A stretch of 64,000 nt of DNA from Pseudoalteromonas phenolica. Its GTDB lineage: Bacteria > Pseudomonadota > Gammaproteobacteria > Enterobacterales > Alteromonadaceae. Positions 635 through 38,973 of the stretch are shown piece by piece. How positions within the stretch are numbered: the first letter of the stretch is position 1; each line of letters begins with the position of its first letter. Both the position numbers and the translations under genes were made by a program. The stretch covers positions 1-64,000 of the forward strand of contig NZ_PNEC01000004.1 of assembly GCF_005886345.1 (NCBI RefSeq). Reading direction: 5' to 3'. The notes beneath the pieces were generated by a model. It was not told where the DNA came from and made no database searches. It was given only the letters and a program-made list of their open reading frames with translations.

Positions 635-1476
635 TTAGTTTCGCTCACACACAGCTCCGATTATCTTCGTTGTCCCATCTAAAGTTGTATGAACAACTGT
701 TTTTAGTTCGCTTGGAATTTCTCGCCCAAGAAATAAACTCATTGTACACACAGTAACTGCGCCAACTGGACATGCACTAACTGGACGCCCCCAAACATGC
801 TCTTGAATTGCTCCATTAAGAGTTTGTTCTATTTTACTATTCCCTCTTAACACCATCGTAGTTTGTTTACCGTCTACACCTTTCTTAACAAACTTATTTG
901 CATTTTTTCTAAATTCTCCAACCTCGTCCTCTGATTATTAAACAAATTCGCCATTGCCGCTGTCATGGCAGCATTGCCAAATTTACCACCAGTTGCTTTC
1001 GAGATCGTTCCGCCTAATATACTCGCAACTATAGCTTCGGCAGGATTATATCCACCAACATCAAAACCACCGATACCTTCAAAGTGAGGAGTTAAACCTT
1101 TTGTTAAACCAGCACTAAAGAACCCATGCCCAAACTTTCCACCTTGGACTTTTGATATCACTCCACCAGCTAATGCATGAGAGACAATATGGCGGAACCC
1201 ATTTTTAACCCCAGCATCAAAAAAACCACCTGTGGTTTTAGTAAATTGTCCACCTATTTTCTGAAATACTTGTGCTGACGCATAGGAAATCGCTGCTGAT
1301 GTAAGTGCTGCTTTTGCGCTTCCTGTTACAGCGTATGTTTGTGCACCATTATAAATCGCAAGACATGCAGCAGCACCTTGGCAGGCTATTCCTATGCCAA
1401 TTTGTACGGCAGCATTTAGTAAAGGGACTTTTGCTATTGCCCTTAACACACTAGTGTATAAGCATTTTTTGTACAT
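635..1476 (-). pseudogene. C-terminal remnant of Rhs/polymorphic toxin, frameshifted
   Basis: The first part (874-1476) reads as the Gly/Ala-rich region that precedes the toxin tip in Rhs or hemagglutinin-like polymorphic toxins, with repeated GGKFG motifs and the typical AAMANLFNN end. The frame then runs into poor sequence and stops at 874. In the neighbouring frame the text continues as SEDEVGEFRKNANKF and on through the second open frame (635-856), so restoring one base near 933-938 joins both into one protein ending CERN. An in-frame stop lies just upstream of the first ATG, so the large N-terminal cage is missing. It is either a broken orphan toxin module or a sequencing error at a short T run. 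Confidence 0.65.
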
Positions 1477-6058: not shown

Positions 6059-6187
6059 TGCTTATTTCAGCTTGCGCAAAATAACCTTGCTTAGATTGAG
6101 AAGAGCTCAACGGTTGCTAAACTTGCTTGTTTCACCTTGCGCAAAGAGAATGTGCTCGCTTCGCTCTCTGTCATTAACCCTCTGCAC
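6059..6187. repeat. Mosaic intergenic repeat cluster 3
   Basis: This stretch contains two D-type starts (CTTGCGCAAAATAACCTTGC near 6071 and CACCTTGCGCAAAGAGAATG near 6133) and a B module (6145-6187) similar to those at 4473 and 4645. It ends where the minus-strand gene at 6191 stops, so the element may also act as the 3' end of that transcript. Confidence 0.55.
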
Positions 6188-6190
6188 GAT

Positions 6191-6505
6191 TTAATGCACG
6201 ATGATTGGTAGGTCATTTACCACTAAAGATTGGCCGTTTTGTTTGGCGCGGATAAAGCTTGAGATTAAAACATCATTAGACAAAGTGTTTATGTCGGCAA
6301 CTTCTTCAACCATACAGAAAGAAATAGAATCCCAGCCTAAATTTTTAATGAAAGTTTCATGCTTATTGATGTTGTCTTGATAGTTTTCATCTGTGGTTAG
6401 TAAGCCTATTGAATGTTTATTACCAAGTTTGTATTTACTGTTGTTGGCAGTTGCACATTTAGCATATCCGCTTAAGACATAAATTGTATTTTCGTTTTGA
6501 TCCAT
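6191..6505 (-). CDS. Hypothetical protein
   Basis: This 104-residue soluble protein has no motif that I recognise. It contains a short Cys-containing N-terminal part (SGYAKCATANN) and an acidic, mixed alpha/beta-like remainder. It has no signal peptide or membrane segment. It stands alone, bounded by repeat cluster 3 downstream and a 270-base gap upstream, and may be an accessory gene. The ATG start has no strong ribosome site. Confidence 0.5.
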   Translation of the reverse strand: MDQNENTIYVLSGYAKCATANNSKYKLGNKHSIGLLTTDENYQDNINKHETFIKNLGWDSISFCMVEEVADINTLSNDVLISSFIRAKQNGQSLVVNDLPIIVH

Positions 6506-9065: not shown

Positions 9066-9215
9066 ATGAAACTTAATCTAAACAAGAAGAAGCTGAAAAC
9101 GTTATCAAAAGACTCGGTTCGCATTCCATCTGATGCAACTAAGCAAGTTGCTGGTGGTTGGGTATCTCGTGATGTTTGGTGCTCTTACCAAAATTGTACT
9201 ACACGTTTATGCTAA
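9066..9215 (+). CDS. Short GG-leader peptide, RiPP precursor-like
   Basis: This 49-residue peptide has a Lys-rich leader (MKLNLNKKKLKTLS) followed by a KQVAGG break and the core WVSRDVWCSYQNCTTRLC with three Cys and two Trp. The ribosome site AAGGAA lies well placed upstream. The leader matches those at 38416 and 38767 (MKL, Lys pairs, LK-x-L(S/T), then GG or GAG). Double-glycine leaders are typical of peptides exported by C39-peptidase ABC transporters and of some lanthipeptide precursors. No modifying enzyme or transporter is nearby, so maturation would need genes elsewhere. A strong terminator follows, so it is monocistronic. Confidence 0.7.
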   Translation: MKLNLNKKKLKTLSKDSVRIPSDATKQVAGGWVSRDVWCSYQNCTTRLC

Positions 9216-29813: not shown

Positions 29814-31184
29814 ATGTCTTTCATTGCTATGGTGAGTTTGGCTGTCTTTGCAGCAATACTCTTGGCGCTATTTAAAATACAACAAAAAGAGGCGCCGCTC
29901 TCGCGGTTGGTATTAATCGGATTATCTCTTGGTAGCGTGTTTGGTTTGGCACTGCAATTCTTCTTGGGAGAAGGGCACGCTGCGATTCAAGAAACCTTAG
30001 CTTGGACCAATGTGGTCGGCAGTGGTTATGTCGGTTTGCTTAAAATGATCATCATGCCATTGGTGTTGGTGTCGATGATTGCGGCAGTTGTAAAACTCGA
30101 TAAGTCAGGGGCACTTGGCAAAATCAGTGGTATCTCCATTTCAATTCTTTTAATCACCACTATGATTGCTGCACTGATTGGTATCACCATTACGCAGCTT
30201 TTTGGTCTCACCGCAGAGGGGCTAACCGAAGGCGCGCGCGAAACCACTCGTCTTGCTGACTTAGAAACGCGAATGGAAAAAGTCAGTGATTTATTAATTC
30301 CAGAAATGCTGGTGAGCTTTATTCCAACGAATATTTTCCAAGATCTCGCATGGGACCGTTCAACATCGATTATCGCCGTGGTGATTTTTGGTATTTTAAC
30401 GGGTATTGCCGCACGCAAAGTGATGCAAGAGCGTGAAGAGTTAGAAGCGCCTATTCGTACGTTTGTAGAAACATTACAAGCTGTTGTTATGCGACTGGTA
30501 AAAATGGTGATTTCACTGACCCCTTATGGTGTAGCGGCTTTGATGGCGAAAGTTGTTGCGATGTCTAGCCTAACTGACATTCTGAATTTACTTGGTTTTA
30601 TTGTTGCGTCTTATGTCGCTATATTATTAATGTTTGTGGTGCATGGCCTGCTGGTGGGCTTGTTCGGGGTAAGCCCAAAACAATATTTTCAAAAGATTTG
30701 GCCTGTGTTGACTTTTGCTTTTACTTCTCGAAGCAGTGCTGCAACGATACCGCTTAATGTTGAAACACAAATCAACAAGTTAAATGTGCCACCTGCCATT
30801 GCTAACTTATCAGCGTCATTTGGCGCGACGATTGGTCAAAATGGTTGTGCGGGTATTTACCCTGCGATGTTAGCTGTTATGGTTGCTCCGACTGTCGGCG
30901 TTGACCCGGTGAGCTTCTCTTTTATTGTGTCATTGGTTGCTATGATAACTATTAGCTCGTTTGGTATTGCTGGCGTTGGCGGTGGTGCAACTTTCGCAGC
31001 CTTGATTGTATTGCCTGCCATGGGGCTGCCTGTGACGATAGCAGCCTTACTTATTTCTATTGAGCCGTTGATTGATATGGCGCGTACCGCGTTGAATGTA
31101 TCTGGTTCAATGACTGCGGGTACCATCACCCATCGTATTTTGGGTGATGAGGAAGAAGTATCCTTGCAAGAAGTTAAAGCATAG
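29814..31184 (+). CDS. tcyP: L-cystine:cation symporter
   Basis: This 456-residue inner-membrane protein of the dicarboxylate/amino acid:cation symporter family has about nine membrane segments. The conserved re-entrant region includes FTSRSSAATIPL and NGCAGIYPAMLAVM. The N-terminal run, with WTNVVGSGYVGLLKMIIMPLVL, resembles Escherichia coli YdjN/TcyP rather than DctA or GltP, so L-cystine uptake is the likely role. A strong terminator follows. A decayed copy of its 3' end is at 36138-36339. Confidence 0.85.
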   Translation: MSFIAMVSLAVFAAILLALFKIQQKEAPLSRLVLIGLSLGSVFGLALQFFLGEGHAAIQETLAWTNVVGSGYVGLLKMIIMPLVLVSMIAAVVKLDKSGALGKISGISISILLITTMIAALIGITITQLFGLTAEGLTEGARETTRLADLETRMEKVSDLLIPEMLVSFIPTNIFQDLAWDRSTSIIAVVIFGILTGIAARKVMQEREELEAPIRTFVETLQAVVMRLVKMVISLTPYGVAALMAKVVAMSSLTDILNLLGFIVASYVAILLMFVVHGLLVGLFGVSPKQYFQKIWPVLTFAFTSRSSAATIPLNVETQINKLNVPPAIANLSASFGATIGQNGCAGIYPAMLAVMVAPTVGVDPVSFSFIVSLVAMITISSFGIAGVGGGATFAALIVLPAMGLPVTIAALLISIEPLIDMARTALNVSGSMTAGTITHRILGDEEEVSLQEVKA

Positions 31185-31293: not shown

Positions 31294-34200
31294 TTAACTT
31301 TCTAAACATGATCTCTCAGTGTTGGTAATGGATTTATCTTCAAACTTCTTGTAGCTTTCACCAAATTCGGCTTTAAAACAAGTGCTAAAATACGTCACAT
31401 TAGCAAACCCTACCATATCAGCAACTTCAGATACTTGTAGTTGAGATCCAATGTATGTTTTCGCTTTTCTCAATCTAAATTTGCGCAAATACTCGTTAAA
31501 GTTGTGGTCTACCAATGCAGATAGTTTTCTATTTAGCTGACGTTCACCGATTGCCATGAGTTCGGCCGCATCAGTTCTTTTGAAGCCTGGATTTGTGAAG
31601 TTTTCCTCAATCACTTTTTCAAATTTTAAAATAAACTTTTCGTCTTTATTGTGAATAAATTCAGCATTTAAAACCGGTGTTTCGTTGCTCAGGCAACTAC
31701 CAAAGCGCTTTTTGAGTAAGTCACGAACAGTTAATAGATTATGTATCCGATAAAGTAGCTCAGTATTAGAAAATGGTTTAGCCATATATTCATCAATACT
31801 ACTTTGCCAACCTTTTAAACGACTGTTTAAGTCATTTTTTGCAGTAAGCATTAATATAGGGATATGGCTTGTATGTACATCGCTTTTTAGCTCTTGCGCT
31901 GTTGCATAGCCATCAATGCCAGGCATCATAACATCACACACTATCAGATCTGGAATTTGCTCTTTGGCTATTCTTAAGCCTTGCTCTCCGTTTGGCGCGT
32001 CAAAGCACAAGTAATGCTCTTGTAAAGTTGAGCGCAAATAACTGCGCAACTCAGCATTGTCTTCAATAATTAACACCGTTTTTTTATTAGAAAAACTCGT
32101 TTCATTATTTTCAGTTTGTGCAATTATATTTTGATGGGTTGAGTAATCCGCTTCTAGGATTAAAGGTGCCTGATTAGATTGTAAAGAATCATTTTGCTCT
32201 GCGTACGTCATTTGTTTCGCAGATGCTACCGGAAATGAGACTATAAATGTGCTACCAGCATTGACTTCACTTTGCAAAGTGATACTTCCGTTGTTTGCGA
32301 TTACCAATTCTTTTACAAGCGCTAGGCCAATACCGGTTCCAGGTGTTTCTGAGTGCTGTTGAGAATCACCGCGAGTAAAGTGCTCAAAGATTTTTTGCTG
32401 CTCGCTAGGTGCTATGCCTATACCTTCATCCGTTATCTTAAACTGAACCCGCTCAGCATCTGAAATGACGCTTATGGTTATACTTGAATCTGAATCTGAG
32501 TATTTGATTGCATTTGACAGTAAGTTACTGAATATTTTGTCAAAAGAGTCTCTGATAAGCGCTAAGTGGAGATCTTTAAATGGTAAAATATTTATTACTA
32601 TATTTTGTTTTCGAGCAAAACTTGAAAATGACTCTACAATTACATTCAATCTAAGTTTGACAGAAATAAAATCTCTTTTTAAATGTGCATTATTCTCTAG
32701 TGCAGCAAGTTCTAAAAGCTGCTCAACCATTCTAAGAAGCCTATTTGCATTCACTTTCATATTCTTGAATTGCTTGTTATAAGCGCTTAGTTCATTATGG
32801 CTGATTAAGTCTTCAAGCGGCGCTAATATTAAAGTTAACGGTGTTCTAAATTCATGAGAGACTTTTGCAAACAGTAATTGCTTCTGTTTTAGAAGATTAT
32901 TGATTTCATTTGTTCGCTCATTAACTAAACCTTCTAGCCTATTTGCTTTGTTAGCTAATTGCCTGAAACGGTATCTGACAAATAAGAAGCCGACAAAAAG
33001 AAATGATAATATCCCAAGTACTTTGGCCCACCAGGTTTGAAACCAAGCTGGGTGTATAATAATGGTTTGTTCAAGTTCATCAAATTCAAAGGGCAATGTT
33101 CTATTGAGTAATTTAGCTTTTAAAACATACTCTCCAGGTGGTAAGTTCATAAACTGAATTGAATGGCCTTTGTTAGATGTCTTTTGCCATGTGTTGTGAA
33201 AGCCTTCTATTTTATAGAGATATTCAAAACTGTTCGGGTGTGAATGTAATGGAGAACTTAGCGTAAACTCAATTTTATTACCTTGAGATGATAAATTTAT
33301 AGGTCTCTGCTTCAATTGAGAAGAGGTATATAGGCTGACCTCTTTATTGATCTCGTCAGAAAACATAGCACCTACCATTGGCTTTATTGAACTGAAAACC
33401 TCATTACTCAATGACTCAGAGTAACCAGCTTTAATTAGTGTTACGCCTTTTTCAGAACCAATGTAAAGTTCTCCAAGTTCAGTTGGGTGCATAGCATGAG
33501 CATTAAATGCTGCAAGAGACGCTCGATAGTCACGGTTTAACTTTCTTATCCTTCCATTGGGTGATAATTGATACAATGTATTATCAGTGGTGAACCATAT
33601 AGCACTGTATATATCTTTAGTAATAGACCAAACAGATTGCTGGGCTATATTTGAAGGTAAATCAGGATATTTATTTATTAACGGAATAACTTGGCCATTT
33701 GAAATTTCAAAAGCACCTGCAGATTCCAAGCCCACCCATACTGTGTCATTTGTGTCTATGAATAGACTGCCAACATGGCTGGAGTTCTCTGAAAAAGAAA
33801 AATGAGATTGAATCGATGCATCATTTGACAGCTTGTATAGACCACTCTTTTGAGTGCCTGCCCATATGTTATCTTTTGAGTCGATTCTTATGGCTGATAC
33901 TGATTGTTTAGCGAAGTTGATTAACTGATCATTGAACGGCTTTTGGTTTATCTTGTGGTGCGTTCGAGATTCAGTATCAAAATAACTTAGTCCAGAATAG
34001 TAACCAGCTATCCACAGTTTATCATTGCTATCAAAGGCCAAATCTAAGATATAGGTATGGGCGGTTTCTTTAAAGTGAGTAATACTATTAATTTTACTCG
34101 CGTTATAGTCGATATGAAATAATCCTTTCTCTAAAGTACCTATCCACAATCCATGCTTATTGGATTTTATACTTCGGATTAAAACGTCTTCAAAGTGCTT

Positions 34201-35433
34201 AATGAGTTCTTGGTTAAACGACTCCGGGGCACCAAAGACATTGAGACCATTATCTCCAGACCATAAGTATCCATAATTGTCTTTAAAAAGGGTATAACTA
34301 CCTTTTGAGTAGTGCACTATATCGTTATTGGTTGCAGGTTGAAGGTGTTGGATCGAATGATTTTGGTTGCTTAGTAAAAACAAACCTGAGAACGAACTTA
34401 TCCATATATTATTAAAATTATCACGTTTAATATTGGTGACAAGGCTCAGTTTGACGTCTTTTTTACTTTCGTTAGCGTATTGATAATGATAAAACCGATT
34501 TTTATCAGGGGTAAATTCTATGATGCCAGACGATATGGCAATTAAAATATTATTGTCATGATCACTGGCTACGTCTCTAATGTTTGTGTTTATATTGGTG
34601 CTAAAGTGTTCTGAGAGTTTTATTTTTTGGATATTATTTTGATCTTTTATCCAGAGAGAATCTCTTTTTGGAAATACACTCATACCATTCTCTAAGCGTA
34701 TCCCCAAGCTCGGGTTGTTGATAAATAGTTTATCGAAGTTGGCTGAGTCTAAAATGTGCCTTTCTACAATTTGATTTGATGATGTATTTATTTTTAATAC
34801 AGAGTCATCATTTCGAAAAACCCATATAAAGCCTTTTTCAGCTCGACGAACTCTCACTGCGATGGACTTTGTGGCCTCGTAATCCTTTGGATAAAGTTCT
34901 ACTTTTTCTGGGGCTTTTAGACTTTTTTCGTTAACTTTATAAACGTCTGAGCCTCCCCTAAAAACAAACCAAATATTTCCATCGTGGTCTGCACCCATAT
35001 TTCGAATATATTGAGTTGTATTAATGTCATTATTTAAAGAAACTCTTTCTAACTTCCCCTTCTCTTTAATGAAAACATTTACACCAGCTGAAGTTGCGAT
35101 CCAGATATTCCCAAACTTGTCGGTTACGATTTTTTGTATGAACTCACTCCATAGTTTATTTTCATGTTTAGGGAAGTATTCATATAAGCTCACAACTTTA
35201 ATCCCATTACTTATGAATATGCCATTGCCCCATGTAGCTATCCACATTAGACCATCTTGGTCTTGTAAATTAGTTGATATTTGCTTTGTTGGCATTTCAT
35301 CATTAAATGCAAAAGGTTCAAATATTTTGAGCTGATGACTGGTGGGGGAGCTATAAGCATTTGCTGATATTAATACAGCTACTAAGTATAAGGTTGCTAT
35401 CCAAAGCGAAAGCCATTTCAAAAAGTAAGTCAT
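31294..35433 (-). CDS. Hybrid two-component system regulator (HTCS-type)
   Basis: This 1379-residue one-protein signalling chain has an N-terminal signal/anchor, two-component propeller repeats (about 40-700, with DNIWFVF- and GLWIGTL-like blades), a Y_Y_Y domain (about 715-790), a membrane helix (about 793-815), HisKA (SHEFRTPL carries the phospho-His), HATPase, REC (aspartate in CDVMMPGIDG), and a C-terminal AraC helix-turn-helix (AELMAIGERQLNRKL and VADMVGFANVTYFSTCF). HTCS proteins of Bacteroidetes sense oligosaccharides and activate adjacent uptake loci. Here no such locus is adjacent; instead a tiny secreted peptide gene diverges 330 bases away. Confidence 0.9.
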   Translation of the reverse strand: MTYFLKWLSLWIATLYLVAVLISANAYSSPTSHQLKIFEPFAFNDEMPTKQISTNLQDQDGLMWIATWGNGIFISNGIKVVSLYEYFPKHENKLWSEFIQKIVTDKFGNIWIATSAGVNVFIKEKGKLERVSLNNDINTTQYIRNMGADHDGNIWFVFRGGSDVYKVNEKSLKAPEKVELYPKDYEATKSIAVRVRRAEKGFIWVFRNDDSVLKINTSSNQIVERHILDSANFDKLFINNPSLGIRLENGMSVFPKRDSLWIKDQNNIQKIKLSEHFSTNINTNIRDVASDHDNNILIAISSGIIEFTPDKNRFYHYQYANESKKDVKLSLVTNIKRDNFNNIWISSFSGLFLLSNQNHSIQHLQPATNNDIVHYSKGSYTLFKDNYGYLWSGDNGLNVFGAPESFNQELIKHFEDVLIRSIKSNKHGLWIGTLEKGLFHIDYNASKINSITHFKETAHTYILDLAFDSNDKLWIAGYYSGLSYFDTESRTHHKINQKPFNDQLINFAKQSVSAIRIDSKDNIWAGTQKSGLYKLSNDASIQSHFSFSENSSHVGSLFIDTNDTVWVGLESAGAFEISNGQVIPLINKYPDLPSNIAQQSVWSITKDIYSAIWFTTDNTLYQLSPNGRIRKLNRDYRASLAAFNAHAMHPTELGELYIGSEKGVTLIKAGYSESLSNEVFSSIKPMVGAMFSDEINKEVSLYTSSQLKQRPINLSSQGNKIEFTLSSPLHSHPNSFEYLYKIEGFHNTWQKTSNKGHSIQFMNLPPGEYVLKAKLLNRTLPFEFDELEQTIIIHPAWFQTWWAKVLGILSFLFVGFLFVRYRFRQLANKANRLEGLVNERTNEINNLLKQKQLLFAKVSHEFRTPLTLILAPLEDLISHNELSAYNKQFKNMKVNANRLLRMVEQLLELAALENNAHLKRDFISVKLRLNVIVESFSSFARKQNIVINILPFKDLHLALIRDSFDKIFSNLLSNAIKYSDSDSSITISVISDAERVQFKITDEGIGIAPSEQQKIFEHFTRGDSQQHSETPGTGIGLALVKELVIANNGSITLQSEVNAGSTFIVSFPVASAKQMTYAEQNDSLQSNQAPLILEADYSTHQNIIAQTENNETSFSNKKTVLIIEDNAELRSYLRSTLQEHYLCFDAPNGEQGLRIAKEQIPDLIVCDVMMPGIDGYATAQELKSDVHTSHIPILMLTAKNDLNSRLKGWQSSIDEYMAKPFSNTELLYRIHNLLTVRDLLKKRFGSCLSNETPVLNAEFIHNKDEKFILKFEKVIEENFTNPGFKRTDAAELMAIGERQLNRKLSALVDHNFNEYLRKFRLRKAKTYIGSQLQVSEVADMVGFANVTYFSTCFKAEFGESYKKFEDKSITNTERSCLES

Positions 35434-35763: not shown

Positions 35764-35976
35764 ATGTTCAAGAAATTAACAATAGCTTCTTTAGCTGTTT
35801 TAAGTCTTTCAACTTTTGCTGCAACTGATAGCAACACTCAAGTTCTAGCTCAACAGTCTCCAGCTGTTGAAATTACAAAGCAAACATCGCTTAGTAAAGA
35901 TTGGTGGTGGGATGATGGTGAAATTTGTTGGATCGACCAAGGTGGCAACATTGACTGTTTTACTCCTCCTTTCTAA
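35764..35976 (+). CDS. Small secreted Trp/Cys-rich peptide
   Basis: This 70-residue protein has a signal peptide (FKKLTIASLAVLSLSTFA), a Gln/Thr-rich spacer, and a C-terminal part, SKDWWWDDGEICWIDQGGN then IDCFTPPF, with four Trp and two Cys spaced C-x9-C that could form a disulfide loop. It faces the large HTCS gene across an otherwise empty 330-base region. A secreted signal sensed by the HTCS, or an HTCS-controlled peptide, are both possible, but this is inference from position. The family is unknown. Confidence 0.6.
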   Translation: MFKKLTIASLAVLSLSTFAATDSNTQVLAQQSPAVEITKQTSLSKDWWWDDGEICWIDQGGNIDCFTPPF

Positions 35977-36137: not shown

Positions 36138-36339
36138 TTCTCTTATATTGTGTCATTGGTTACGATGAGTACTATTAATTCGTTCGGTATTACCAGCAAT
36201 GGGATTGCCTGTGACGATTGCGGCTTTACTTATTTCTATTGAGCCGTTGATTGATATGGCGCGTACCGCATTGAATGTATCAGGTTCAATGACTGCGGGT
36301 ACGATCACCCATCGTATTTTGGGCGATAAAAAGCCATGA
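36138..36339 (+). pseudogene. Partial copy of the tcyP 3' end, internally deleted
   Basis: This stretch repeats tcyP from about 30930 to 31150: GTGTCATTGGTTACGATGAG, then CCTGTGACGATTGCGGC, through CATCGTATTTTGGGCGAT. About 50 bases in the middle, including the Gly-rich GVGGGATFAA codons, are missing. It ends in frame with its own tail, GDKKP and a stop at 36337-36339. No 5' part exists, so it is a relic of a second symporter gene. The rest of 35977-36556 holds no gene. Confidence 0.8.
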
Positions 36340-36556: not shown

Positions 36557-38155
36557 ATGAAATTTCAAAAGTCTTTATTAGCCCTCACCGTTTTATTAAG
36601 TTTAACCGCCTGTAGCGATGATGATGACAATGAAGTCGTTACTCCCACACCAACACCTAGTTTAGAGTAGGTTTCTCCTGAAGAAGATCGTGTTATGGTC
36701 GAGGACTTTCCTTTAGCCATGTATGTGACGTACCCCGAAGGCGAGCAAGTCGTGAGTGCCATCACCAGTATAGATGTTAACTGGCCTATGTTTGATATTC
36801 ACCAATCAGGTTTAGAGTATGGTTTTATTGATGGTGACTCAGATGAGCTATTTTATCACTCAGTTGATAATTACAGTATTAATGCAGCGAATGCGATTGA
36901 TCTAGAGCGACAAGAAGATGTGCTTTGGTATGTGCAAAGTGATGGTAATTTATATCAATACAATCGTGCTACGGATGAGGAGCAAGTATTTGAAATACTG
37001 GCTGATGCTCAATTTACTGAAGTTGCCATAGATGAAACAGGCCAAGCAGATATTTGGCTTTACGATCAAGCAAACCATCAACTGGTGCATTTTGATGCTG
37101 ATCAGCAGCAAAATAATATTTTAGCTTTGTTAGATAATTTGGCAGTGAATGGTTTAGCAATCAGTGAAGATAACTTTTTGATTTTGGCTAAAGAGAATGA
37201 ACGGGGTGTGGTACTGCATTATCAGGTTGAAGGTCATGCTCTTGAACATCAAGGCTCATGGTATTTAGAAGGCTTTGGTGCTGCTGAATTTAACGATATT
37301 GGTTTAATGCCTGATGGGCGAATAGCAGTGAGTACCACAGATAAAGAGCACAATATTTTCTTAGTGATGGATAAATCTAAACTCATTGGTGCAGGACCAA
37401 TTGAAGACAGCTTTGAGCTTGTGCTGAGCATGCAACATCCACTTGAAGATGATATTAAGCAACCGTCAGGGTTATGGTCTTTGCAAGGTAGCAGTTGGAT
37501 GATGGTAACAGACCAAGCTGAAATCTTTGCTTTGGATGAGTCATTTACTATTACTGAAAAAGTGAATATTGAGTTTGATAGTATCAACTGTAATCAAGGC
37601 TACACAGAAGCCATTGTTGGTGGTATTGATGAGTTTTTTTTACTGACAGACTCAGGCCTTGTAGGTCAATTTAATAAGCAAGATAGCAACTACAGCTTAA
37701 CGCAAGAGCATCAAATTAATGTAGAAAATGAAGCTGGAGAAAGTTACTGATACTCAGGCTTAGGTAAAGATGAAATTAGTGGTGAGTATTATCTTGTACC
37801 AGATCAAGGTGGTGATGATCAGCAAGACGTTTTAATTGTTCTTAACGCTGATTTCTCGTTAAAAGAAAAGCACCCTATTACTTTTAATGGTGAGCCTGAA
37901 GGCAGTATTTTTGAATACGATGCACAGGGGGTTCAATATGTTGATGGTCATGTTTATGTACTGTCTGAGAAGTACACTAAGTTGATTAAGTTTAATTTAG
38001 TCGGCGAAATCTTAGCTGTTTATGATTTGTCAGAAGAGGATGTGGCTGATCCAAGTGACTTTGCAATTAGAGATGGAGAAGTATTTATACTTGGCGATCA
38101 TGAAAATGACGAAGCTGTTCCACCCGTTTCTCAGTTCACTATTGAGATGTACTAA
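36557..38155 (+). pseudogene. Lipoprotein with two in-frame stops (SdiA-regulated-like propeller)
   Basis: From ATG at 36557 a single frame runs 533 codons to TAA at 38153-38155, broken only by TAG at 36668 and TGA at 37748. It begins with a lipoprotein signal (LLSLTACSDDDD, Cys near residue 19). The remainder has repeated short strands such as DWMVTDQAEIFALDES and VYVLSEKYTKLIKFN, resembling SdiA-regulated/YjiK-type beta-propellers. Codon use and length stay normal around both stops, so inactivation looks recent. The family call is tentative. Confidence 0.65.
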
Positions 38156-38415: not shown

Positions 38416-38616
38416 ATGAAACTTCAATTAAAAAAATCAAAATTAAAGTCATTAACACCAAGCAGTAACGTACTAGCTAAAGATTTAACACCTAATGTAG
38501 CAGGTGGTTTTATTCCTACAGCACGCCGTTATTGTCAAACAGATATGAACTGTGCAAGCGAAGGATGTGATTCAATTGCACCAAACTGTGGTACACAAAC
38601 CTATACTTGTTTCTAA
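38416..38616 (+). CDS. GG-leader peptide, Cys-rich RiPP precursor-like
   Basis: This 66-residue peptide starts MKLQLKKSKLKSLT, breaks at NVAGG, and continues with a core rich in Cys, Thr and Ser: FIPTARRYCQTDMNCASEG then CDSIAPNCGTQTYTCF (five Cys). The leader matches 9066 and 38767. AAGGAA lies ahead of the start. A Cys/Thr/Ser-rich core is suitable for lanthionine or disulfide formation, but no LanB/LanM, radical SAM or C39 transporter is present in the window. The terminator following it keeps it monocistronic, and it converges with the 38767 peptide gene. Confidence 0.75.
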   Translation: MKLQLKKSKLKSLTPSSNVLAKDLTPNVAGGFIPTARRYCQTDMNCASEGCDSIAPNCGTQTYTCF

Positions 38617-38624
38617 GTATAAAA

Positions 38625-38652
38625 AAGTCAGGTCGTTGTTTTGACCTGACTT
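38625..38652 (+). terminator. Terminator of the GG-leader peptide gene
   Basis: AAGTCAGGTC and GACCTGACTT form a perfect 10-bp stem with an eight-base loop, nine bases after the stop. An A run precedes it, so it can also work for the convergent gene. Confidence 0.8.
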
Positions 38653-38766
38653 AAAGTCCATCTTATTCACTTAATTTACCCACCTTTACCGCAATAAATA
38701 ACCCAACGGCTTGGGTTCAATTAAACAGAAGTAATTTAGATAGATAAACTTAATAGCGAGCCCTGA

Positions 38767-38973
38767 TTAGCCTTTGCAATAAGCATTGCCATCAATACCG
38801 GTATAACACGCACCGATTTGCGCACTTTGACAATGTGCAGGGTGAGTATTACAAATTACCCAGCTTCTAGGATCTGGAGTGAAGTAACCAGCACCGATCT
38901 GAGCTGTTTGGTCATCGTTAAGAGATTTACCTGTTAGTTGTTTAAGTGACTGTTTTTTGATTTTAAGTTTCAT
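38767..38973 (-). CDS. GG-leader peptide, second Cys-rich precursor-like
   Basis: This 68-residue peptide starts MKLKIKKQSLKQLTGKSL, has the break QIGAG, and a core with Cys in ICNTHPAHCQSAQIGACY and at the end (AYCKG), four Cys in all. The AQIGA(G/C) motif occurs twice, so the second may be a cryptic cleavage site or an internal repeat. AAGGAAAAATCA precedes the start, as in the other two peptides. It is convergent with the 38416 gene. A cognate maturation system is not in the window. Confidence 0.7.
   Translation of the reverse strand: MKLKIKKQSLKQLTGKSLNDDQTAQIGAGYFTPDPRSWVICNTHPAHCQSAQIGACYTGIDGNAYCKG

Follow-up and report, generated by a model that had tools for sequence, protein, structure and literature searches.

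Putative class I lanthipeptide precursors scattered through the genome of Pseudoalteromonas phenolica are probably matured in trans by a single LanB/LanC pair

The window analysed here is a stretch of 64,000 nucleotides at positions 1 to 64,000 of contig NZ_PNEC01000004.1 (C100) of Pseudoalteromonas phenolica. An earlier sequence-only reading had pointed to a convergent pair of Cys-rich peptide genes in this window that share a leader with a distant third copy. Both open reading frames are present and face each other, and the third copy is a gene about 29 kb away that is recognised by the same leader profile. The features are:

38416..38616, + strand: putative precursor gene 1, with a leader at 38416-38508 ending in VAGG, a core at 38509-38613 and a stop codon at 38614-38616
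38767..38973, - strand: putative precursor gene 2, with a leader at 38973-38887 ending in GAG, a core at 38886-38770 and a stop codon at 38769-38767
9066..9215, + strand: third putative precursor gene of the window, with a leader at 9066-9158 ending in VAGG and a core at 9159-9212
38625..38652, - strand: hairpin of 10 pairs with a T run, between the convergent genes 1 and 2, terminator-like for gene 2

Gene 1 is predicted to encode MKLQLKKSKLKSLTPSSNVLAKDLTPNVAGG followed by a 35-residue core with five Cys, and gene 2 MKLKIKKQSLKQLTGKSLNDDQTAQIGAG followed by a 39-residue core with four Cys. The third gene is predicted to encode MKLNLNKKKLKTLSKDSVRIPSDATKQVAGG followed by WVSRDVWCSYQNCTTRLC, a core of 18 amino acids with three Cys that is close to VVSRNVWCSYQNCTSRLC in another genome (G023). 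Using a profile of the leader, to which all three genes contributed as seeds, gene 1 scored 53.4 bits, gene 2 44.9 bits and the third copy 58.8 bits. Neither peptide of the pair matched a Pfam or NCBIfam family at E ≤ 10. A pattern scan found four terminator-like sites compared to a mean of 0.5 in shuffled sequences; promoter-like sites numbered two, below the shuffles' mean of 3.8, and we claim no promoter.

The genome to which the window belongs (G000) is 4.57 Mb in 164 contigs. With single peptides as queries, searches of this genome listed 6 places for one member of the pair and 15 for the other (E ≤ 10), and the two members found each other weakly (E 0.58 and 0.59). A leader profile of 31 positions built from 15 leaders of the same genome found 21 places at E ≤ 1e-3, comprised of the 15 seeds and six non-seeds. 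The consensus of this leader is MKLxLNKKxLKxLS...TPxVAGG. Alignment of 18 copies (153 pairs) showed that the leaders have a mean identity of 0.49 versus 0.26 when shuffled and the cores 0.27 versus 0.25, which agrees with the earlier description of a conserved leader joined to a varying core. A Shine-Dalgarno-like AAGGA is found at -12 to -8 upstream of the pooled family genes (98 non-redundant upstream regions of 107). No common upstream motif stood out beyond this ribosome-binding site, which lends no support to a single regulon controlled through a shared DNA box.

The window and its contig (193,720 bases, with three leaders) contain no match to LanB, LanC or C39 peptidase, as the sequence-only reading had noted for maturation genes in the window. 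LanB and LanC are encoded on contig C96 and C39 peptidases on C96 and C108. The first 16,000 bases of C96 (C96:1-16000, L043) contain, in one direction, genes for an HlyD-type adaptor, an ABC exporter with a C39 peptidase domain, LanC and a full LanB, as well as leader genes at 640-783 (+) and 6108-6269 (-). The LanB is 1059 aa long and carries the glutamylation domain (PF04738, E 5e-131) and the elimination domain (PF14028, E 9e-63) in one protein; the LanC is a stand-alone protein of 402 aa (PF05147, E 1e-46). These are the sole LanB match and the sole LanC-domain match of the genome. A LanM was rejected as maturase in this genome, the only LanC domain being that of the 402-aa LanC. Nine relatives (G027, G033, G036, G041, G044, G047, G053, G060 and G078) have a LanC-domain match in a frame of 890-931 aa that is possibly a LanM-type class II synthetase.

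The catalytic motifs of the C96 proteins are kept in alignments with relatives of solved structure. Alignment with NisC showed that the LanC has GLAHG, WCYG and CHG, which we take to be the zinc-ligand motifs. Alignment of the LanB with NisB showed RPTPFG, FFIRYxDPxxHxRLR, YEREVERYGG and HNNR, which we take to be the active-site motifs, and alignment of the C39 domain with PCAT-type transporters showed the Cys of ECG, presumably the C39 cysteine. There is a second C39-peptidase ABC exporter with an HlyD-like partner at C108:54708-60955 (L049 9700-15955), located between two leader genes and away from LanB. Thus, the exporter of the precursors need not be the one on C96.

We then examined how the leader and LanB are distributed using a slightly larger leader profile (A3) made from 18 leaders of the P. 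phenolica genome. Leader matches at E ≤ 1e-3 occurred in 47 of 99 Pseudoalteromonas genomes, and LanB (PF04738) occurred in 47 of the 99, the identical set. False positives of the profile are rare since it finds nothing at this threshold in 52 of the 99 genomes of the genus. The sequence-only reading had proposed a leader-profile scan of the genus and held that a leader limited to this strain would speak against it; the scan places the leader in 46 other genomes. LanC is found in 46 genomes of the genus and, among the 47 that bear LanB, is absent from G032 alone; this genome has LanB and a single leader, with no LanC match at E ≤ 1e-5. In a sample of the order (295 genomes), the leader (E ≤ 1e-4) and LanB (E ≤ 1e-20) are found in the same four genomes (G000, G049, G351 and G194), two of which, G351 and G194, lie outside the genus. 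Of the 47 genomes of the genus that bear LanB, 45 have just one strong match to it (over 370 bits), whereas there are two in G039 and two in G089; further weak matches of 27-31 bits occur in G041 and G023. The chance of identical sets, unweighted, is about 10^-28.7 for the genus and 10^-8.5 for the order, and because LanB presence follows relatedness, fewer independent events than genomes lie behind this identity. The leader profile used sequences from the P. phenolica genome only. Together with the location of LanB, LanC and the exporter on another contig, the exact co-occurrence supports maturation in trans, as had been suggested from the window.

This effect of relatedness shows in a gene that flanks the pair in the window. 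It is present in 45 of the 99 genomes of the genus and, the P. phenolica gene aside, is 66-89% identical in 27 LanB-positive genomes and 44% identical in the LanB-positive G017; in every LanB-negative genome that carries it (16 genomes) the identity is 42-52%.

Another type of enzyme for modified peptides, a radical SAM or YcaO protein, could modify the precursors, with LanB present for other reasons. This possibility arises from a comparison of 16 precursors of the P. phenolica genome with curated leader models, in which two match TIGR04149, a leader family modified by radical SAM enzymes (best E 4.4e-5), and three match Bacteroid_pep of Pfam (best E 0.0024). The same scan yields the class I models NF038158 (four matches, best E 0.084) and NF038153 (two matches, best E 0.29), suggesting that leaders of such shape look alike, and the presence of the leader tracks LanB exactly. 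We regard the involvement of such an enzyme as highly improbable. The curated class I leader models fail to recognise the family, giving weak matches only to few of the 16 members, and this failure weighs little because those models were made with other bacteria in mind.

The composition of the cores was determined from 215 loci and the window, which yielded 148 distinct genes. This pool was used instead of an earlier one of 107 genes that had no Cys-less core and was biased to the best-scoring loci. Eight profile hits were excluded from the 148-gene pool: six without a Met near the expected start (one gene in three loci and another in two), one with a core of fewer than five residues and one in which the end of the leader was not reached. 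Ser or Thr followed by Cys was found in 130 of the 148 cores, including those of all three window genes. At least two Cys were present in 127 cores and no Cys in 18. Cys accounts for 10.7% of core residues versus 0.2% of leader residues. Small open reading frames in any of the six frames of the stretches used served as controls (n = 3089); they are unproven as genes and may include a few family members. Their Cys content was 4.7%, with at least two Cys in 32% compared to 86% of the family.

Conservation within cores was examined in 39 related pairs from 51 genes, chosen from 88. Cys was kept in 298 of 302 cells (98.7%) and Ser/Thr as a class in 424 of 492 (86%), values that are somewhat flattered since BLOSUM62 favours Cys-Cys and Ser-Thr pairing; exchanges between Ser and Thr make up 66 of the 134 Ser/Thr changes. 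Other residues were kept in 858 of 1652 cells (52%), with Gly at 144/194, Pro at 108/155, Trp at 26/35 and the rest at 580/1268. Thioether rings predict that Ser/Thr are guarded jointly with Cys, a pattern not predicted by disulfides.

These data bear on the idea that the genes encode unmodified double-glycine peptides of the class II bacteriocin or microcin type, in which the leader would serve C39 exporters only and the Cys would form disulfides outside the cell. The cores are Cys-rich and the genome has two C39 exporters, each with leader genes close by, as this idea would have it. It does not account for the occurrence of leader and LanB in exactly the same genomes or for the retention of Ser/Thr alongside Cys, which disulfides do not demand, and we consider it quite improbable.

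Based on these results, the pair very probably encodes class I lanthipeptide precursors (LanA) that belong to a dispersed repertoire served in trans by one promiscuous LanB/LanC pair, that of C96, and a C39 exporter. According to this model, which is drawn from gene content and sequence comparison, the single LanB dehydratase and the LanC cyclase would recognise the shared leader in trans. LanB would dehydrate Ser and Thr of the core using glutamyl-tRNA and LanC would add Cys thiols to form (methyl)lanthionine rings. The C39-peptidase ABC transporter, with its HlyD-type adaptor, would cut after the double glycine (GG, GA or AG) and export the core. The precursors, about twenty here and between 1 and 73 in each of the 47 LanB-bearing genomes, would be scattered small genes gained and lost singly, so that one machine could make a repertoire of different peptides. 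The products are most likely secreted antagonistic or signalling peptides, and we favour a mixed secreted repertoire.

Eighteen leader peptides near lanB (in L179, L182, L183, L189, L202, L203 and L210, from P. luteoviolacea, P. aurantia and others) have the family leader and Cys-less cores that hold, for example, DSSDTSVTVPSGP or TNTDTITQTVKNPN. These cores cannot form thioethers because they have no Cys. They may be dehydrated linear peptides or regulatory decoys.

The dispersal of the leader genes is seen in G060, a closed genome of two replicons, where 64 leaders occupy 43 sites separated by more than 10 kb and the leader nearest lanB is 30.8 kb away. In P. phenolica the single LanB compares with 21 leader places on 14 contigs. 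Thirteen of 36 LanB loci from named records had no leader of at least 22 bits in the stretch around them, which extended up to 10 kb on each side and was shorter in some. Genome-wide counts were obtained for 15 of these 36 records: P. phenolica 22, P. luteoviolacea MMG020 69, P. luteoviolacea DSM 6061 35, P. aurantia 25, P. rubra S2676 43, P. amylolytica 9, P. caenipelagi 16, P. byunsanensis 10, P. flavipulchra ATCC BAA-314 19, P. piscicida 8, P. peptidolytica 10, P. denitrificans 44, Pseudoalteromonas sp. NBT06-2 3 and two Colwellia MAGs with 3 each. Across the LanB-bearing genomes of the genus the median is 20 leaders and the total at least 1205, the counts in five genomes being lower bounds. 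The number of leaders rises with genome size (Spearman 0.79).

In G084 and G009, the two closest relatives, a counterpart of gene 2 with most of its core conserved lies next to the flank gene; gene 1 has no counterpart at this site in either. Among 30 stretches around the flank gene, covering 1.5 kb on each side and including the window, 26 contain no leader. One locus (L157) has a weak leader match on the opposite side of the flank gene. Spread as a mobile cassette finds no support in the region between the flanks, which aligns to relatives only across part of the gene at 38767-38973. In the 65 related gene pairs listed, core dN was never above dS where both rates were computed, as in L092/L093 (core dN 0.02, dS 0.76), and positive selection on single cores is not supported. 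A few cores change faster than their own leader, including those of L059/L060 (core dN 0.29, leader 0) and L080/L081.

The sequence-only reading had held that cores under purifying selection as ordinary structural proteins would count against a diversifying precursor family. Purifying selection does predominate among related genes, and the cores are short peptides patterned in Cys, Ser and Thr rather than structural proteins. The selection on related cores would therefore fit a family that diversifies by the birth and death of separately kept products, not by hypervariation within each gene.

Some or most of the scattered copies could instead be decaying or silent duplicates of the LanB-adjacent precursors that have no present product. 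Among the 21 copies, one on C104 has an in-frame TAA between leader and core and one on C92 has no in-frame start codon, and both look damaged; the many flank-gene stretches of relatives that lack a leader point the same way. By contrast, frames are intact, a ribosome-binding site is present, none of the 65 pairs listed has a core dN above dS where both were computed, and the cores of paralogues are unrelated to each other and not degraded copies. We consider it quite improbable that silent duplicates explain the dispersed repertoire.

Class I lanthipeptides have been reported from this genus. They include pseudorosins A-C of P. flavipulchra S16, with the enzyme PsfB (PMC12819058), and PciA of P. 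citrea DSM 8771 (PMC9993889), both presented there as products of gene clusters. A class I region with LanB, LanC and a C39 peptidase is described from antiSMASH analysis of P. viridis (PMC11015633) and RiPP-like regions from Pseudoalteromonas isolates (PMC10456417). Pseudorosins and PciA thus share their genus and enzyme class with the system described here. Over the best segment, the LanB of P. flavipulchra ATCC BAA-314 shares 64% identity with that of C96; family leader genes lie near it, and the genome as a whole has 19 leader matches. Class I lanthipeptides of the genus are already known; what the present data add is the probable use of class I enzymes in a one-enzyme, many-scattered-substrates way. 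Among the literature matches listed, titles and the starts of abstracts mention no genome-scattered class I precursors in Pseudoalteromonas; subscription papers fall mostly outside that scope.

The closest likeness is to the prochlorosins and synechococsins, for which published reports describe one promiscuous synthetase (ProcM, SyncM), a shared leader, diverse cores and many precursors far from the enzyme, numbering 29 in Prochlorococcus MIT9313 and 79 or more in some Synechococcus (PMC12328550, PMC7268733, PMC10783134). As in those systems, there is a single modifying enzyme, here LanB, and many putative precursors mostly away from it. The arrangement is best known from ocean cyanobacteria, whose enzyme type differs: prochlorosins depend on a class II LanM and a Nif11-type leader, whereas here there are separate class I LanB and LanC proteins and a short Lys-rich leader in Gammaproteobacteria. 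A Pfam scan of the 16 P. phenolica members gave no match to the Nif11 family at E ≤ 10. A GG leader and a C39-peptidase exporter are common to this system and double-glycine class II bacteriocins and microcins. The GG leaders of Bacteroidetes (NF038158, NF038153, TIGR04149; PF14406) are likewise short with a double-glycine end and give weak matches to few of the 16; unlike these leaders, the pair matches no such model and neither do most of the 16.

We lean towards a broader reading, in which about half of the sampled Pseudoalteromonas species would run a dispersed class I repertoire. As many as 73 precursors, mostly unlinked, would be modified in trans by one LanB/LanC pair; each would be gained or lost alone, with its core under selection once useful. 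The prochlorosin strategy would then have arisen a second time, independently, in a different class of enzyme and a different bacterial group, and would have been overlooked because mining looks only near enzymes. If this is true, the 99 sampled species include 47 that together encode about 1200 class I precursors, many of them outside recognised clusters. It would also provide naturally promiscuous class I dehydratase/cyclase pairs and hundreds of ready-made substrates for engineering, and the question of why one bacterium keeps dozens of lanthipeptides would become testable in fast-growing marine bacteria. Genetic tools for such bacteria are described in PMC12819058.

Neighbouring genes were surveyed as open reading frames of at least 90 aa in 35 stretches, grouped by similarity. 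Thirty-four groups recur in at least three stretches, several because the stretches are mutual counterparts. No immunity-like gene was found among the representatives of the 8 of 34 groups scanned, which include LysR, LacI, globin/flavohaemoprotein and beta-lactamase-type proteins, among others. Some copies may have a bacteriocin role, since the scan covered 8 of 34 groups and proteins of at least 90 aa. A 416-aa protein with no Pfam match is encoded at L055:5525-6772 (-) and has relatives in L087, L094, L095 and L103, five leader-bearing stretches in all.

Other features were observed in the window. A small frame at 35764-35976 (+) encodes a peptide of 70 aa whose N-terminus resembles a signal peptide and whose C-terminal end has two Cys; its matches, to YhcN and DUF4971, are weak only. 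A long frame at 36695-38155 (+), adjoining the pair, is broken by an in-frame TGA at 37748-37750 and resumes in the same frame to 38155, and is possibly a damaged gene. The C-terminal end (...HRILGD) of a carrier-like protein encoded at 29814-31184 recurs at 36199-36339, in what looks like a partial duplication judging by the sequence, and the two copies flank a large open reading frame at 31294-35433.
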